Source of the DNA: a virus
Reading direction: 5' to 3' (one strand)
Virus record (IMG/VR): IMGVR_UViG_3300021957_000188
Coordinates: 1 to 30,388 of that record
DNA length: 30,388 nucleotides
Below the pieces are notes generated by a model, which saw nothing but the letters and a program-made list of their open reading frames with translations, had not been told where the DNA came from and ran no database searches. A program made the translations under genes and the position numbers. The number at the start of each line of letters is the position of its first letter. Within the stretch, counting starts at the first letter, position 1. Below, one piece after another: positions 1,650-30,388 of the stretch.

Positions 1650-2176
1650 AAATAGCCGACCTAAAGTTCGACCCGCAGAACGCTCGCGTTCGAACGGCGA
1701 AGGGGGAGGCGATGATACAAGAGTCGCTCCGGCAGGTTGGCGCGGCTCGGTCCATCGTCATTGACGAGGATGGGACGATTCTTGCAGGAAACGGGACGGT
1801 CGAAGCCGCAGGACAGGTTGGCATTGAAAACGTGGTGATCGTAGAAGCCTCTGGGGATGAGATCATCGCGGTCAAGCGGGTTGGGCTGACGGACGAGCAG
1901 AAGAAGAAACTGGCGTACTACGACAACCGCACCGGAGACGAAGCCGAGTGGGATATGGAGCAGGTGGCTCGTGACCTTCTGGGCGGGTATGAGTTTCTCG
2001 ATGAGTTGTTTGAAGAACTTAAAATGCCCGAAGAAATGGAAGTTGGTTCAGAAGATCAGTCTCACTTGCTGGATGATTCTTTTGAAATAATTGTTACTTG
2101 CTCTGATGAGTCAGATCAAGCAAAATTGTTGGAGGAGTTTGAACAAAGAGGGTACGAATGTCGAGCAATTTTTTAG
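1634..2176 (+). CDS. ParB-like (ParB/Srx superfamily) N-terminal domain protein
   Basis: A 180-residue protein. Residues 1-110 resemble the ParB/sulfiredoxin N-terminal domain: L-K-F-D-P-Q-N-A-R near residue 9 corresponds to the usual N-P-R box, and I-L-A-G-N-G-T-V-E-A to the G-H-R nucleotide-binding box. Such phage proteins are often encoded beside DNA methylases or other base-modifying enzymes. A separate C-terminal piece of about 40 residues (I-I-V-T-C-S-D-E-S-D then G-Y-E-C-R) follows an acidic linker. The DNA is visibly richer in A and T from about base 2030, so the tail domain belongs in composition with the next gene, whose start it overlaps by 19 bases. There is no helix-turn-helix or plasmid-partition neighbour, so DNA segregation is unlikely. 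Confidence 0.8.
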   Translation: MAKRLKIADLKFDPQNARVRTAKGEAMIQESLRQVGAARSIVIDEDGTILAGNGTVEAAGQVGIENVVIVEASGDEIIAVKRVGLTDEQKKKLAYYDNRTGDEAEWDMEQVARDLLGGYEFLDELFEELKMPEEMEVGSEDQSHLLDDSFEIIVTCSDESDQAKLLEEFEQRGYECRAIF

Positions 2177-3273
2177 AACTTAAGACAAACATAGAGCGAA
2201 CGCCTCGAATCGCACAACTGGAAGGTATTTTTGATGTGCCCAAAGCATCAGAGTCTGTCGTACGTATTCAAAAAATACCAGACACGCTTGGCGAGTGGAC
2301 TGTCGGTTTGATAGTTGGTCATTCCGGATCGGGCAAAACAAGCGTAGCCAGAGAAAAGTGGGGAGATTGTATTGTTGATGAATACGAATGGCATCAACAC
2401 AAATCTGTGGTAGATTCTTTTGATCCCAATTTGTCAATGAAAGCAGTAACGGGCGCTTTGTCGAGCGTTGGTTTTTCTTCGCCCCCATCATGGATGAGAC
2501 CATACAAGGTTTTGTCAAATGGAGAAAAGTTTAGAGCAAACATGGCACGGGCGCTGCTCGACGAGCGCGAATTAATTGTCATAGATGAGTTCACATCCGT
2601 AGTTGATCGACAGGTTGCAAAGATTGCATCAACAGCAATACAAAAAGCATTTAGGCGAAAAGGTAAAAAATTGGTGGCTGTTTCTTGCCACTACGATATT
2701 GCAGAATGGCTGCAACCTGATTGGACTTATGAACCATCAACCGGCACGCTTGCGCGTGACTGCCTTCAACGACCACAAATTGAAATCACCATACAGCAGG
2801 TTGATCGTTCAGCGTGGCAACTATTCAAAAAGCATCACTATTTGAGCAGCGATATTAATAAGGCAGCACGATGTTTTGTTGGGTTTGTTTGGGGTCAACC
2901 CGCCGCATTTATGGCTGTTTTGCCTTTTCCACACGCACATAGAAGCGGCTGGCGCGATCATAGAACTGTTTGTCTGCCTGATTTTCAAGGCGCTGGCATA
3001 GGTAACGCCATGAACGCCGCAATATGCTCAATATATAGAGCAACTGGGAAGCCCGTGTTTTCAACCACCTCCCACCCTGCCATGATATACAGTCGGGCAA
3101 AATCTGAGATGTGGAAAATGAACAGAAAGCCATCGTACACAAGTAGAGACACAAAAAGCATCTCACTCAACAAATCAAGAGCAAAAAACAGGAAAACAGC
3201 CGGTTTTGAGTATGTGGGCAAGCCTGACCAGCAGTCAGCAATCGGCTTTGGTCTCAAAAATGTAACGGTATAA
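2158..3273 (+). CDS. ABC-type ATPase fused to GNAT/Mom-like acyltransferase (COG2401-like)
   Basis: A 371-residue two-domain protein. Residues 1-215 form an ABC-type ATPase: Walker A G-H-S-G-S-G-K-T at 54-61, signature L-S-N-G-E at 119-123 followed by R-A-N-M-A-R-A-L, Walker B L-I-V-I-D-E at 139-144, and a switch-like C-H-Y-D-I-A-E near 180. There are no membrane partners, so it is not a transporter. Residues from about 225 form a GNAT-like domain with H-H-Y-L-S, A-V-L-P-F-P-H, R-D-H-R-T-V-C-L-P and the acyl-CoA loop D-F-Q-G-A-G-I-G. The architecture matches the COG described as an ABC-type ATPase fused to a predicted acetyltransferase. Phage Mu Mom, which modifies adenine, also has a GNAT-like fold, so DNA or protein acylation against host restriction is plausible. 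The gene is AT-richer than the late arm and coupled to the ParB-like gene. Confidence 0.85.
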   Translation: MSSNFLELKTNIERTPRIAQLEGIFDVPKASESVVRIQKIPDTLGEWTVGLIVGHSGSGKTSVAREKWGDCIVDEYEWHQHKSVVDSFDPNLSMKAVTGALSSVGFSSPPSWMRPYKVLSNGEKFRANMARALLDERELIVIDEFTSVVDRQVAKIASTAIQKAFRRKGKKLVAVSCHYDIAEWLQPDWTYEPSTGTLARDCLQRPQIEITIQQVDRSAWQLFKKHHYLSSDINKAARCFVGFVWGQPAAFMAVLPFPHAHRSGWRDHRTVCLPDFQGAGIGNAMNAAICSIYRATGKPVFSTTSHPAMIYSRAKSEMWKMNRKPSYTSRDTKSISLNKSRAKNRKTAGFEYVGKPDQQSAIGFGLKNVTV

Positions 3274-24343: not shown

Positions 24344-24370
24344 AAAAAAAGGACGCCTTACGGGGCGTCC
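24344..24370 (-). terminator. Rho-independent terminator of the early (left-going) arm
   Basis: On the minus strand the stem GGACGCC / GGCGTCC (7 bp, loop CCGTAA) is followed by seven T residues (A run at 24344-24350 on the plus strand). It lies between the convergent ends of the two arms, 31 bp beyond the stop of the last early gene. No T run follows on the plus strand, so termination of the late arm here is less certain. The loop is shared with the intergenic hairpin family. Confidence 0.8.
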
Positions 24371-24373
24371 TGT

Positions 24374-24401: not shown

Positions 24402-24608
24402 TTAGGAAAGACTGCCGATCTTTTCCTCGTTGCGAATAAGGGAGGCTTCATTTTTTACCCGCTCGCGCTGATAAACGTTGTTCGTAATAAGATCTGCTGC
24501 GATGGTCAGTATTTCTCCTGACTGTTCGCCGCTAAGTTCTCCGTTCTCAACAGCCAAGTTTGCATAGCGGATGAGTTCGTTTGCGAGGTCTGCGGTAGAA
24601 ATAATCAT
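24402..24608 (-). CDS. Small hypothetical protein, last gene of the early arm
   Basis: A 68-residue helical, acidic protein starting M-I-I-S-T-A-D-L-A-N-E-L-I-R-Y-A, then E-N-G-E-L-S-G-E-Q-S-G-E-I-L-T-I-A-A-D-L-I. ATG 24608 is chosen because it follows the recurrent leader CCGAGAGTGACA; the frame upstream of it is leader sequence shared with other genes and not coding. It has its own copy of the early promoter module and the clear terminator just downstream. Function unknown. Confidence 0.62.
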   Translation of the reverse strand: MIISTADLANELIRYANLAVENGELSGEQSGEILTIAADLITNNVYQRERVKNEASLIRNEEKIGSLS

Positions 24609-24704
24609 TGTCACTCTCGGTTTGTGATGGCTTGCGCCGTTTTGTTGATACAAAGGTCGGGCTTTTTTTTTATATATCCTATCACTTCACAAACCTTTCA
24701 CAAA
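24609..24704 (-). promoter_or_regulatory. Early promoter module 1 with 11-bp-spaced repeats
   Basis: On the minus strand TTTGTGAA occurs at 24704-24697 and again at 24693-24686, 11 bp apart, followed by an A/T-rich core (GGATATATAAAA), CTTTGTATCAACAAAACGGC and the GAGAGTGACA leader of the downstream gene. The same order is seen at 28229-28313 and 29994-30112. The first repeat overlaps the stop of the VRR-NUC gene. The core is taken as -10-like, but exact hexamers are not clear. Confidence 0.6.
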
Positions 24705-25075
24705 CAAAGATCAGGCAGGGCGTTCTGGATGTGGTCTGTGATCGCCTTGTACGCTTCCTCTGCCGAATAGCATACCACGCAGTCATACCCAGATGCTTCG
24801 AGGCGGTCCATCCACGCCTGCTGATGCTTGCTCGGCTTGTTCGGCTTGATCTTCATCTCGACAAACAGCCCGGCGGCGTGGTCGGTCGGCACGGCAACGA
24901 AGATGTCCGGGACACCTGCCTTCACTCCCTCGGCTTTTAGTTTGGCTGCAACCTTTATGTGGCGCTGCCCACCGTTCGGGATGGCAAAGATGTTGGCGTA
25001 TAGCGGGTTGGTCCGCTCTTGGATCTTGAGCAGCCTAAACAACGCCTTCTGTTCGAGGTGTTCTCTCTGGTTCAT
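24698..25075 (-). CDS. VRR-NUC domain nuclease
   Basis: A 125-residue single-domain protein of the phage VRR-NUC family (PD-(D/E)XK-like fold, Holliday-junction or structure-specific nuclease). Signature pieces are visible in order: the leading E-Q-K-A-L-F, I-P-N-G-G-Q-R, K-L-K-A-E-G-V-K-A-G-V-P-D-I-F with the first catalytic Asp, G-L-F-V-E-M-K with the Glu-x-Lys pair, and K-P-S-K-H-Q-Q-A-W-M with the downstream helix. It probably resolves branched replicative or packaging DNA. The gene has a long 196-bp upstream region with iterons. It ends inside the promoter module of the next gene. Confidence 0.92.
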   Translation of the reverse strand: MNQREHLEQKALFRLLKIQERTNPLYANIFAIPNGGQRHIKVAAKLKAEGVKAGVPDIFVAVPTDHAAGLFVEMKIKPNKPSKHQQAWMDRLEASGYDCVVCYSAEEAYKAITDHIQNALPDLCL

Positions 25076-25110
25076 AGTTCGTCAGTTGTGATGATATACA
25101 CCTGTTTTTG

Positions 25111-25133
25111 CCGCTAAAGCGTCAATTTAGCCG
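25111..25133 (-). promoter_or_regulatory. Inverted repeat around a possible -35 box
   Basis: GCTAAA (25113-25118) and TTTAGC (25126-25131) form a perfect inverted repeat around seven bases. Read leftwards, the centre contains TTGACG (25125-25120), a five-of-six match to a -35 hexamer, with TGTATA 19 bp downstream. This looks like an operator placed on the promoter of the VRR-NUC gene. The spacer is longer than ideal. Confidence 0.45.
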
Positions 25134-25230
25134 ACTTTCCTTTGGTTTGTGCGACATTTGCGGTACAAGCGCGACATTTTTCCTGCTTACGCGACAAAAG
25201 ACTATGTTTCGCGACATTCCATATTCAAGA
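25131..25230. repeat. Iteron-like array, 20-bp period (core GCGACA)
   Basis: GCGACA occurs at 25151, 25171, 25191 and 25211, exactly 20 bp apart. A degenerate unit (CCGACTTT) at 25131 fits the same period. Three units are preceded by C (CGCGACA) and three continue with TT, while the spacers differ, so the core is conserved as a protein-binding site. The array sits in the 196-bp gap between the Gp157 stop and VRR-NUC start. That gap holds no gene. It also has the inverted repeat at 25111-25133 and a small hairpin CACTT-TTGCAT-AAGTG at 25251-25266. Confidence 0.85.
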
Positions 25231-25271
25231 ATGTAGCATATAACGTACATCACTTTTGCATAAGTGTAGCC

Positions 25272-25814
25272 CTATCTCAGCACCACGTATTCCTTGCCTT
25301 CTCCGAGCGCAGCGAAGTCACATTCCAGACCAGCAGCAAGCGCCTTGCCGATGGCGGTCTTGTCTGGTCGGCGTGTGATCTTGGCGAACTCATCCGGCAC
25401 GAGCGTCTCATCTTCGATGATGACAGGAGCCTTTGCCTTGCGTACTGATACGCTGACGTGGTTGGGTGTCTCTGCCTTCTGCATACCGAGCATCTTCATC
25501 GACAGCATGATGCGATCTTTGAGACCATCCACCACGCGGCGCTTGCTGTTGGCGCGAGCCTTCATCGCGTCCATACGTTCGCGCAGGTACGCGGCTTTCG
25601 CTTCGTAGGCTTCGGCATCCATTTCCATCTGGGCGATGACCACGGCGTAGCGGTCGAGTTTGGCAAGGATGTCATCCTCGCCTTGTGCGATCTGGTCGAG
25701 CAGCGCCTCGGCATCCTCGGTTATCTCGCCGCCTGTTTGCTCAAGCAGTTCCTCCAAGTTGGCAAGGTCTGCCAGTTGTGTGTGGGTCAGGTCAAATAGG
25801 TTTTGGTTATCCAT
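25272..25814 (-). CDS. Gp157-family siphovirus protein
   Basis: A 180-residue protein of the siphovirus Gp157 family (named after a streptococcal phage Sfi21 protein linked with phage resistance). It has a coiled-coil first part (L-A-N-L-E-E-L-L-E-Q and I-A-Q-M-E-M-D-A-E-A-Y-E-A-K), then the conserved R-R-V-V-D-G-L-K-D-R-I-M-L-S-M, V-S-V-R-K-A-K-A-P-V-I-I-E-D and P-D-E-F-A-K-I-T-R-R-P-D-K-T-A-I-G-K-A-L. Many phages encode it beside replication or recombination genes and its biochemical role is unclear. The ATG at 25814 follows the recurrent GAGAGAGACA leader. Confidence 0.9.
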   Translation of the reverse strand: MDNQNLFDLTHTQLADLANLEELLEQTGGEITEDAEALLDQIAQGEDDILAKLDRYAVVIAQMEMDAEAYEAKAAYLRERMDAMKARANSKRRVVDGLKDRIMLSMKMLGMQKAETPNHVSVSVRKAKAPVIIEDETLVPDEFAKITRRPDKTAIGKALAAGLECDFAALGEGKEYVVLR

Positions 25815-26072: not shown

Positions 26073-26182
26073 CGCTTTAGCCACCTCTTAATGGTTAGTA
26101 TTGACCACGCTTTGACACGCCACATGAGCGCATCCTGTTCGGGCGTTGATTGCGGTTCTTCGGTCCAGTCTAATCGTACCAT
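26069..26182 (-). CDS. Small hypothetical protein (37 aa)
   Basis: A 37-residue frame starting ATG 26182 inside the end of the regulator gene and ending in an ATGA overlap with the next gene. The product is M-V-R-L-D-W-T-E-E-P-Q-S-T-P-E-Q-D then W-R-V-K-A-W-S-I-L-T-I-K-R-W-L-K-R, with a tryptophan-rich amphipathic second half. It is too short for routine ORF calling, but the coupled overlaps at both ends match the style of this operon. Confidence 0.55.
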   Translation of the reverse strand: MVRLDWTEEPQSTPEQDALMWRVKAWSILTIKRWLKR

Positions 26183-26370
26183 TGTACAATCCTGTTTGGT
26201 TCGGTTTTCAGTATGCGGCACAGGCTGACAAGCGTCCGCAGGCTGGGCTTTGCCTTGCCCGTCTCAATCCTGCACACCTGATCCACGCCAAGTCCGATTG
26301 CGCCGGCAACATCCTTCTGGGTCATGCCCAGAGCGTAGCGCCTGCATACAATGTGGTCTGTGTTAATCAT
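26170..26370 (-). CDS. XRE-family helix-turn-helix regulator
   Basis: A 66-residue protein that is almost only an XRE/Cro-type DNA-binding domain: R-R-Y-A-L-G-M-T-Q-K-D-V-A-G-A-I-G, recognition helix region L-G-V-D-Q-V-C-R-I-E-T-G, then K-P-S-L-R-T-L-V-S-L-C-R-I-L-K-T-E-P. It is likely a repressor or Cro-like switch for early genes. Its last codons contain the palindrome ATTGTACAAT (26181-26190), which also occurs near the early promoter at 30102-30111 and may be its operator. It overlaps the genes on both sides (ATGA upstream). Confidence 0.88.
   Translation of the reverse strand: MINTDHIVCRRYALGMTQKDVAGAIGLGVDQVCRIETGKAKPSLRTLVSLCRILKTEPNRIVQWYD
26181..26190. promoter_or_regulatory. Palindrome ATTGTACAAT, copy 1
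   Basis: A perfect 10-bp palindrome inside the 3' end of the XRE gene and at the start of the 37-residue gene. An identical copy lies at 30102-30111. It may be an operator, although here it also encodes protein, so coincidence cannot be excluded. Confidence 0.4.
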
Positions 26371-26672: not shown

Positions 26673-26923
26673 CCCTCGACCTCCAGCATCAGGTCGATCA
26701 GTTCGCCATCGACGAACGCTTGCATGGCATCCTCTATGTGCAGTTTGGCAGCGTCGAGACCGGCTTCGAATCCCTCAAAGTATCCTTCATCCTTTCCCTT
26801 CCAGAAGGTCTGGGCTTCCTGCATACCGAGCGCCGCCATCTTGATCTTCATGTGGATCAGGTTGGCAGCCTGCCGCATTTGCGGCTCGATGGCTTCTCGG
26901 TGAACTCCATTGTGTCTCGTCAT
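26669..26923 (-). CDS. Hypothetical early protein (84 aa)
   Basis: An 84-residue protein with a helical pattern: A-A-N-L-I-H-M-K-I-K-M-A-A-L-G-M-Q-E-A, an aromatic centre K-D-E-G-Y-F-E-G-F-E-A-G-L-D-A-A, and an acidic end. ATGA overlaps on both sides support the start at 26923. No known domain is recognised. Confidence 0.62.
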   Translation of the reverse strand: MTRHNGVHREAIEPQMRQAANLIHMKIKMAALGMQEAQTFWKGKDEGYFEGFEAGLDAAKLHIEDAMQAFVDGELIDLMLEVEG

Positions 26924-27949: not shown

Positions 27950-27965
27950 TGTGGTATAAGGTTGT

Positions 27966-27983
27966 GCCGCCTTACGGGGCGGC
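27966..27983. repeat. GCC-CCGTAA-GGC hairpin repeat, copy 2
   Basis: GCCGCC-TTACGG-GGCGGC gives a perfect 6-bp stem between the stop of the gene at 27992-28228 and the start at 27949. There is no T run on either side. It may be an RNA-stability or attenuation element. Confidence 0.8.
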
Positions 27984-27991
27984 AGGTTGGT

Positions 27992-28228
27992 TTAAAAGTT
28001 TGGGTTGGCTGTTTTGACACCGATTCCCGGCTTGTCATGTGGGTGGATGTTCTTGACGCTTACCGTGTGACCATTGTCCCACATTACGTCAAACCATGTT
28101 CCGAACTGGTCGGTGGTCGACCCAAGAACAACACCTGTCATGTCGCACATTCCATCGGCGGCGAACTCGCCGGGTCCACAGATTGCAAAAACTTTCGTGC
28201 CGGGTGTGATTGTCGTTGTGTTGGTCAT
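27992..28228 (-). CDS. Small SH3-like/KOW-like hypothetical protein
   Basis: A 78-residue protein with short strands typical of a small beta barrel: I-T-P-G-T-K-V-F-A-I, G-V-V-L-G-S-T, G-T-W-F-D-V-M-W-D-N-G-H-T-V-S-V and I-H-P-H-D. The layout resembles the gene at 29712-29993, so the two may be distant relatives. The gene is preceded by early promoter module 2 and followed by the hairpin repeat. Function unknown. Confidence 0.65.
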   Translation of the reverse strand: MTNTTTITPGTKVFAICGPGEFAADGMCDMTGVVLGSTTDQFGTWFDVMWDNGHTVSVKNIHPHDKPGIGVKTANPNF

Positions 28229-28313
28229 TGTCTCGTCCTGTTGTTTGTTTGACTTGATACAAAGATCGAGGTTTTTTTTGACATAGACAATTCCTTCACA
28301 AACCTTTCACAAT
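28229..28313 (-). promoter_or_regulatory. Early promoter module 2 with 11-bp-spaced repeats
   Basis: On the minus strand ATTGTGAA (28313-28306) and TTTGTGAA (28302-28295) are 11 bp apart, followed by GTCTATGTCAAAAAA and CTTTGTATCAA, then the GACGAGACA leader of the gene starting at 28228. The same layout occurs at modules 1 and 3. The 3' end of the upstream gene overlaps it by one base. Confidence 0.6.
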
Positions 28314-28594
28314 CAATCTCGAAGGTATCGGTAGGTGTACGTCTTGCGGCGGTACGGTCCGGCGTATACCGAATCATCGCGCTCAATCTTCCCTGCATCA
28401 TGCAGGTCCGTGATGGCTCGCCTGACGCTTGTAATCGGCACATCGCCACGCAGGAAGGTCTTGATCGTCCACGCATGGATGGACGTGTTGGGCATGGACC
28501 TGAACAGGTCAAGGATGCGCTTGGTCTGTGAGGCGGCTGACCGGGTTGCGGTTGCCAGTTCTTCGCCTGCCTCTCTCGTTGTGTTGTAGTACAT
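28313..28594 (-). CDS. Winged-helix-like DNA-binding protein
   Basis: A 93-residue basic protein. It contains the helices Q-T-K-R-I-L-D-L-F-R-S-M, S-I-H-A-W-T-I-K-T-F-L, T-S-V-R-R-A-I-T-D-L-H-D-A-G-K-I and a strand pair with R-R-K-T-Y-T-Y-R-Y, which is the winged-helix plan of small phage regulators. ATG 28594 is chosen; an upstream TTG at 28600 would overlap the previous gene. It probably acts as a regulator or replication-initiation-like protein. Confidence 0.68.
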   Translation of the reverse strand: MYYNTTREAGEELATATRSAASQTKRILDLFRSMPNTSIHAWTIKTFLRGDVPITSVRRAITDLHDAGKIERDDSVYAGPYRRKTYTYRYLRD

Positions 28595-29340: not shown

Positions 29341-29356
29341 TGTATCTCTCGGTTGT

Positions 29357-29374
29357 GCTGCCTTACGGGGCGGC
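29357..29374. repeat. GCC-CCGTAA-GGC hairpin repeat, copy 3
   Basis: GCTGCC-TTACGG-GGCGGC is almost identical to copy 1, including the following GGG. It sits in the 60-base gap between two small early genes. The 60 bases hold no gene. Confidence 0.8.
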
Positions 29375-29400
29375 GGGTTGTTCTTGGTTCAGGCATTGAA

Positions 29401-29625: not shown

Positions 29626-29664
29626 TGTCTCTCTCGGTTGGTGGTTTGAGGTGTCTGCCTCATC

Positions 29665-29703
29665 AGCACCGGGAGACGATCCCCGGTGGACGCCCCGAAG
29701 GGC
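29665..29703. other. Two adjacent hairpins in an early intergenic gap
   Basis: CACCGGG (29665-29671) pairs with CCCGGTG (29680-29686), and directly after it ACGCCC (29688-29693) pairs with GGGCGT (29698-29703) around CGAA. The second is followed by TTT on the plus strand. On the minus strand there is no T run, so this is not a clear terminator for the early genes. It may be an attenuator or RNA-stabilising element between the genes at 29993 and 29625. Confidence 0.6.
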
Positions 29704-29711
29704 GTTTCGGC

Positions 29712-29993
29712 TTAGATGATCTGGAAGTGAAGGCGCCGAGCCCGTGTGAAAGGCTTGATAAGCCATTCGAGCGTGTAAGGAATTGCCGTGGGATGCAGGG
29801 AATCAACTTTAAGCCATGTTCTTGGTCTTTTTCTTTCCAAGACTTCCCCGTCTGGGTATGAGTGTTGGTGAGTCCAGTCAACGCGGGCACGTTCGCCATC
29901 CATCTCGATGACCGTTCCAATGCGACCGATGAAATCGTCCTTACCTTTTGTCCGAACAACTTCGCTGCCGATTGTGATGTTTTTCTGTGTCAT
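29712..29993 (-). CDS. Small SH3/KOW-like hypothetical protein, first early gene
   Basis: A 93-residue protein with a small beta-barrel pattern: I-T-I-G-S-E-V-V-R-T-K-G-K-D-D-F-I-G-R-I-G-T-V-I-E-M, A-R-V-D-W-T-H-Q-H and R-T-W-L-K-V-D-S-L. This is a KOW-like layout similar to the gene at 27992-28228. ATG 29993 follows the CCGAGAGAGACA leader. It is the first gene of the early arm, which often encodes host-takeover proteins. The last 25 residues are basic. Function unknown. Confidence 0.65.
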   Translation of the reverse strand: MTQKNITIGSEVVRTKGKDDFIGRIGTVIEMDGERARVDWTHQHSYPDGEVLERKRPRTWLKVDSLHPTAIPYTLEWLIKPFTRARRLHFQII

Positions 29994-30112
29994 TGTCTCT
30001 CTCGGTTGGTTATGGCTCGCGCCGTTTTGTTGATCGCAATATCGAAATCCTTTTTGACATATGCATACCACTTCACATACAGTTCACACAAACCGCTCAC
30101 TATTGTACAATT
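29994..30112 (-). promoter_or_regulatory. Early promoter module 3 and leader (main left-going promoter region)
   Basis: On the minus strand, TTTGTGTGAA (30092-30083) and TATGTGAA (30079-30072) have starts 11 bp apart on the plus strand, followed by TGCATATGTCAAAAA, GATCAACAAAACGGCGC and the CCGAGAGAGACA leader. The palindrome ATTGTACAAT lies immediately upstream (30102-30111). This is the most upstream of the three related modules and probably starts early transcription. The module and the 3' adjacent 30113-30168 hold no supported gene. Confidence 0.62.
30102..30111. promoter_or_regulatory. Palindrome ATTGTACAAT, copy 2
   Basis: A perfect 10-bp palindrome about 10 bp upstream of the repeats of early promoter module 3. 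It is identical to the copy at 26181-26190. This position fits an operator for the XRE regulator or another dimeric protein. Confidence 0.5.
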
Positions 30113-30168: not shown

Positions 30169-30300
30169 ATGCAACAGGTGTCCGTGGTTATGGAAGCGGA
30201 GCCGCTCGAGGTGCAGGAGGTCAACCGGAACACGTTGGGGATGCAGGCAACGAATCCCGAACAGCACACAGGGGCAGCGTTCTTCCGGCTCTATATATAA
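30169..30300 (+). CDS. Possible 43-residue protein across the circular junction
   Basis: A right-going frame from ATG 30169 to TAA 30298-30300 (equivalent to 58-60) encodes M-Q-Q-V-S-V-V-M-E-A-E-P-L-E-V-Q-E-V-N-R, followed by L-G-M-Q-A-T-N-P-E-Q-H-T-G-A-A-F-F. Composition is protein-like but there is no ribosome-binding site and it precedes the late promoter. The overlapping frame is Gly/Arg-rich. Low confidence. Confidence 0.25.
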   Translation: MQQVSVVMEAEPLEVQEVNRNTLGMQATNPEQHTGAAFFRLYI

Positions 30301-30388
30301 CCCCTGTTGTACCCTTTTGACATTTAGGGTTAGCACACCGTATCCTGAGAGACAGAACAAATCAAATCGAAAAAGAAGCCCTATACAG
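30241..30388. repeat. Terminal redundancy, right copy
   Basis: The second copy of bases 1-148, with G at 30247 and G at 30369 where the left copy has C and A. It includes the repeated late promoter (TTGACA 30317-30322, TATCCT 30341-30346). The two differences show that the ends are not an exact assembly duplicate. Confidence 0.93.

Follow-up and report, generated by a model that had tools for sequence, protein, structure and literature searches.

A strictly phased array of four GCGACA words lies in a non-coding insert between a Gp157/Mu Gam-like gene and a VRR-NUC nuclease gene of one phage genome, and the array is absent from ten related contigs. The array is real and non-random. From its sequence and setting we give about an even chance that it is a lineage-specific regulatory (operator) array that would give the nuclease gene its own control, and a local gene switch appears more likely than a replication origin, the other role that had been predicted for it.

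The phased GCGACA array and its setting

The window, that is, the whole stretch of DNA that was analysed, is 30,388 bases long. Its two ends, 1-148 and 30241-30388, match over 148 bp with 2 mismatches and therefore the record covers all or nearly all of a genome, which maps as a circle of about 30.24 kb. The first 24.3 kb carry rightward genes (amidase, ParB-like, ABC/GNAT protein, terminase, portal, head and tail) and the region from 24.7 to 30.4 kb carries small leftward genes. None of the window proteins that were scanned could be recognised as a polymerase, helicase, primase or initiator, and small ORFs without assignment remain. Thus the premise of the original prediction that there are no replication genes elsewhere holds for the scanned proteins of a near-complete record. 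The features that matter for the analysis are as follows.

24698..25075, minus strand: VRR-NUC nuclease gene, 125 aa, directly downstream of the array (PF08774, E 1.3e-10; phrog_824; Holliday-junction-resolvase family phrog_5702)
25076..25271: non-coding insert carrying the array, 196 bp, 42% G+C against about 53% for the window, absent from ten related contigs
25131..25136: degenerate fifth copy in register, CCGACT, 4/6 bases
25151..25216, plus strand: four exact GCGACA cores with a 20-bp period (TGTCGC on the minus strand)
25211..25237: imperfect inverted pair GCGACATTC / GAATGTAGC, 8/9, which puts a partner in inverted orientation at the array's upstream end
25272..25814, minus strand: Gp157/Mu Gam-like gene, 180 aa, upstream of the array (PF05565, E 1.9e-24; phrog_253)
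26170..26370, minus strand: gene for an XRE (HTH_3) regulator, 66 aa, the candidate putative binder (HTH_3, E 4.6e-10)

The exact cores occupy 25151-25156, 25171-25176, 25191-25196 and 25211-25216 on the plus strand, and this verifies the predicted positions and the strict period. The fifth core that had been claimed at 25131 is indeed in register but it is weak, and next to it GCCGAC begins at 25130, one base before the register. The extended core is YGCGACAWW, or WWTGTCGCR in the sense of the nuclease gene. The description of the array as lying upstream of a nuclease gene was borne out as well because the product of 24698-25075 is a VRR-NUC protein; the four cores are 76-141 bp 5' of its ATG. 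The lowest-G+C 30-mer beside the array, at 25221, has 27% G+C.

The word itself is not enriched since GCGACA was found 21 times in the window against 22.9 expected by chance, and the only unusual feature is its phased cluster. When the whole window was searched, only this 6-mer, among all non-simple ones, came up four times with a fixed period between 8 and 60 bp. Summed over every word and period, the number of such phased arrays expected from the window's own 6-mer frequencies is 1.6e-4, and a phased four-copy 6-mer was seen in 0/300 genomes simulated with a second-order Markov model. Pairwise identity among the four good copies is 6-9/9 bases in the core versus 1-5/11 bases in the spacer, so that the spacers differ as had been stated. 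Cores that are alike with spacers that are unlike point to placed binding sites rather than to a recent tandem duplication, and the GCGACA copies are thus a cluster of probable protein-docking sites. Tandem Repeats Finder did not report the array, which is to be expected with unrelated spacers. It had also been claimed that the sites face the same side of the helix; a period of 20 bp is 1.9 turns of B-DNA and hence adjacent sites come close to sharing one face without quite doing so. When the two strands of the insert were folded as RNA, they were no more stable than shuffled sequences (z -0.09 and -0.47), which leaves control at the RNA level without support. An Rfam scan of the window gave no match at the array, and a search of the literature on phage TGTCGC or GCGACA arrays found nothing on point.

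The same junction in related contigs

Relatives were collected by IMG/VR scans with the nuclease, Gp157, the 166-aa protein at 26920, the terminase, the phosphoesterase and the 83-aa protein as queries. Ten related contigs span the Gp157-nuclease junction and the array is present in none of them. In eight of the ten, the Gp157 stop overlaps the nuclease start (TAATG) with zero gap; these eight hold near-identical pairs and amount to about five independent genotypes. The other two, L097 and L020, have a PAPS-reductase-like gene, or its end, at the junction. This gene lies between the Gp157-like and nuclease genes at 6545-7409 of L097 and at the contig start of L020, and it looks PAPS-reductase-like by eye from its translation. 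L097 is the nearest relative that covers the junction, with 96% identity in the nuclease and 97% in Gp157. L187 is closer by its terminase (99% identity) and its 10.8-kb contig stops before the array.

Nowhere in the ten related records are there two TGTCGC words at 20 bp with at most one mismatch. Pairs with two mismatches do occur in the relatives at scattered positions, with an overall frequency not above that of a reversed control pattern. A phased 6-mer array of any sort was not seen in the loci checked. Phage and plasmid records, queried by BLAST with the insert, returned chance matches only, and the loci from other contigs that were searched for it contained no copy. Conservation of the 20-bp GCGACA spacing in relatives, which the original prediction had put forward as a check and whose lack it had named, beside a lack of binding, as a ground for refutation, is therefore absent, and in the present data the array is private to one genome.

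Operator, origin and other explanations

In most relatives the two genes overlap, and the pair is thus probably translated in coupling; the usual state would be a nuclease start on the Gp157 stop with both genes in a leftward early operon. The gap in the window splits genes that are otherwise coupled, and the 196-bp insert between them would break this coupling. In the mechanism that we propose, one DNA-binding protein on four TGTCGCR sites about two helical turns apart would set the expression of the nuclease; it would either stop transcripts that run on from Gp157 or act on a promoter within the insert. Protein binding, regulation and the direction of the effect are what we infer here from anatomy and comparison only. 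As expected of an operator, like sites with conserved cores and free spacers lie 5' of a gene. The unique phased word, the contrast between cores and spacers, and the AT-richer non-coding place 5' of a single gene argue for the operator. The array resembles the direct-repeat operators of phages (TTGC repeats of the lambda CII type and other tandem operators) in having short helix-phased half-sites 5' of a phage gene; it differs from them in having four sites at 20 bp, a different word and a putative binder. Against the operator, a minus-strand scan in or near the insert for sigma-70-like promoters, which does not extend to phage-specific ones, gave none at threshold, and the gap is known from a single genome. 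If the operator is true, a gain of about 200 bp would have been enough for this lineage to regulate one member of a tightly coupled operon separately.

The first candidate for the binder would be the phage's own XRE protein and the second a host regulator. The alignment to relatives has a gap at 26170-26365, at the XRE gene, with continuous flanks in L097. A search with the XRE protein gave no match in close relatives; its only three matches are distant (29-38% identity) and come from phages further removed. The relatives that lack the array thus lack the XRE gene too, and this is why XRE is put first. This link is weak because it comes from one genome which has other indels relative to the same relatives. 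Six distant XRE homologues (34-47% identity) were found in other viruses and no TGTCG pair near 20-bp spacing is present in their loci. XRE proteins usually bind palindromes, and the direct half-sites of the array therefore count against XRE and the operator. A more specific proposal, which we consider a long shot, is that the phage recently gained XRE along with a multi-site operator and that this freed the VRR-NUC nuclease from its coupling to the Gam-like protein; the protection of ends and the action of the nuclease would then differ in timing.

The original prediction offered two readings, protein-bound sites that form an operator for the nuclease or a replication origin, and the first fits the anatomy while the second went unsupported. 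In an origin, an initiator would bind the 20-bp repeats as iterons and open the adjoining AT-rich stretch. The geometry does suit this, since the four cores give at least three direct repeats of about 17-22 bp at near-constant spacing, the period is about two turns, and the AT-richer flank falls to 27% G+C in one 30-bp stretch. The iterons at the origins of theta plasmids, and of P1 and similar prophages, are likewise a series of direct repeats with a spacing of about two turns in AT-richer non-coding DNA. A near-complete genome of 30.24 kb without a recognised replication gene must also use some origin, and unrelated phages carry GCGACA at a 10-bp period in phage genes, most clearly in a Prim-Pol gene. 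But plasmid iterons usually conserve most of the repeat unit, whereas the window units share only about 9/20 bp, and no linked initiator (Rep) gene was recognised beside the array among the window proteins scanned. DnaA-box-like words are common throughout the window (31 with at most one mismatch) and not concentrated at the array; the two exact ones are near 2.9-3.1 kb, and the vicinity of the array has only those with one mismatch. The proposed check by cumulative GC skew also went against an origin: the minimum is at 1103 and the maximum at 24661, beside the array, which by the usual rule puts the array on the terminus side, and gene orientation confounds this. The array is absent from all ten related contigs, and this comparison makes an origin unlikely and means that the family's origin is to be sought elsewhere. 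We therefore regard an origin at the array as improbable. If it were true, against this evidence, it would explain where replication starts in phages without a recognised replication gene.

Three other explanations were considered beside the favoured operator. Chance, or functionless decay of tandem repeats in a non-coding gap, would agree with the single genome, the lack of conservation and the variable content of the junction, but it has to face the expectation of 1.6e-4 for any word at any period and cores that stay intact while the spacers are unrelated; it is unlikely, yet it is the least unlikely of the three. The TGTCGC repeats could also be end sites of a TnsB/Mu-type transposase left behind after a deletion, since the insert is in one lineage and at a junction that also took the PAPS-reductase-like gene in L097 and L020. 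Direct repeats starting with TGTC are known at the ends of Tn7/Mu-type elements, but an exact 20-bp period is not typical of them. Further against such a remnant, a target duplication was not seen, a transposase gene was not found, and neither phage and plasmid records nor the loci searched for the insert contain a second copy. A transposon end of the Tn7/Mu type was rejected because there is no inverted partner end, GCGACA on the minus strand being found only at 28141 and below 13.5 kb; a mobile remnant is slightly less probable than an origin. The least probable explanation is a site for a host redox regulator of the RegA/PrrA type. In its favour, RegA ChIP sites in Rhodobacter include 15-mers that begin with GCGACA, namely the listed peaks GCGACAGGACGCCGC and GCGACATGGCCACGC (PMC5359404), and a Rhodobacteraceae phage carries one of two distant Gp157 matches (30% identity). 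Most listed RegA sites, however, resemble an inverted pair of halves that end in CGC or CGG (PMC5359404), and the second half is in place in 0/4 of the window copies. The RegA/PrrA site was rejected because the inverted GCG-type pair within 15 bp is missing in all four.

Phased GCGACA elsewhere and other features of the genome

An IMG/VR search for GCGACA three times at 20 bp gave 14 stretches. Most of them are arrays with a 10-bp period, several inside phage genes, and such words were observed in the unrelated phage contigs L004, L005, L006, L008, L010, L011, L013 and L015. The clearest case within a gene is the Prim-Pol replication gene of L005/L010 (PF09250, E 8.9e-38), and L004 has a weak DnaT match; these in-gene words are possible origin repeats. 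They share the word and the helical phasing with the window array and differ from it in their 10-bp period and their place inside coding sequence.

A GTDB genome search with a stricter pattern gave 13 stretches, of which 10 are in Caldilineaceae. The Caldilineaceae arrays (L270-L272, L274-L278, L280 and L282) read GCGACATACGTATACTTGGC-GCGACATTTGTAGACATAAC-GCGACAT, and one of them precedes terminase-like genes. Like the window array, they have the core YGCGACAWW and a 20-bp period and are non-coding and upstream of genes. Unlike it, their 20-bp units are conserved well past the core, they occur at several places per genome, and their orientation to the downstream gene is the opposite, the arrays being oriented towards unrelated genes. 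Arrays before several unrelated genes are as expected of regulator sites, and the likeness to the window array is one of analogy and not of homology; by themselves they look like an unexplained regulon or a dispersed element. Outside the core, neither the IMG/VR nor the Caldilineaceae set is related in sequence to the window insert. GCGACA thus serves in phased arrays on more than one occasion, and the proteins that use it are presumably unrelated. A Chloroflexota host, which the Caldilineaceae arrays suggested, was rejected because 201 genomes of the phylum gave only distant terminase matches (at most 31% identity).

Several other features of the genome were observed. Next to the ParB-like gene, the gene at 2158-3273 codes for a protein (phrog_11143, E 3e-112) with an ABC-ATPase part (Pfam ABC_tran, 1e-6) and a weak match to GNAT acetyltransferases. 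A type II hammerhead ribozyme (RF02276, 62 bits, E 9.4e-11) is present on the minus strand at 29649-29712, just 5' of a small leftward gene, and the stretch 29640-29714 is 96-97% identical in the relatives L101 and L103. Terminator-like hairpins of the GCCGCCTTACGGGGCGGC type recur across the leftward region at 24350-24371, 27965-27984 and 29356-29375. Dispersed promoter-like repeats, made up of direct repeats of about 11 bp, lie at 24605-24713, 28254-28322 and 29990-30099; on the minus strand they have TTTGTGAAAGGTTTGTGAAGTG followed by a TATATA-like box. Related sequence is present in the relatives, and these repeats are possible phage-specific promoters.
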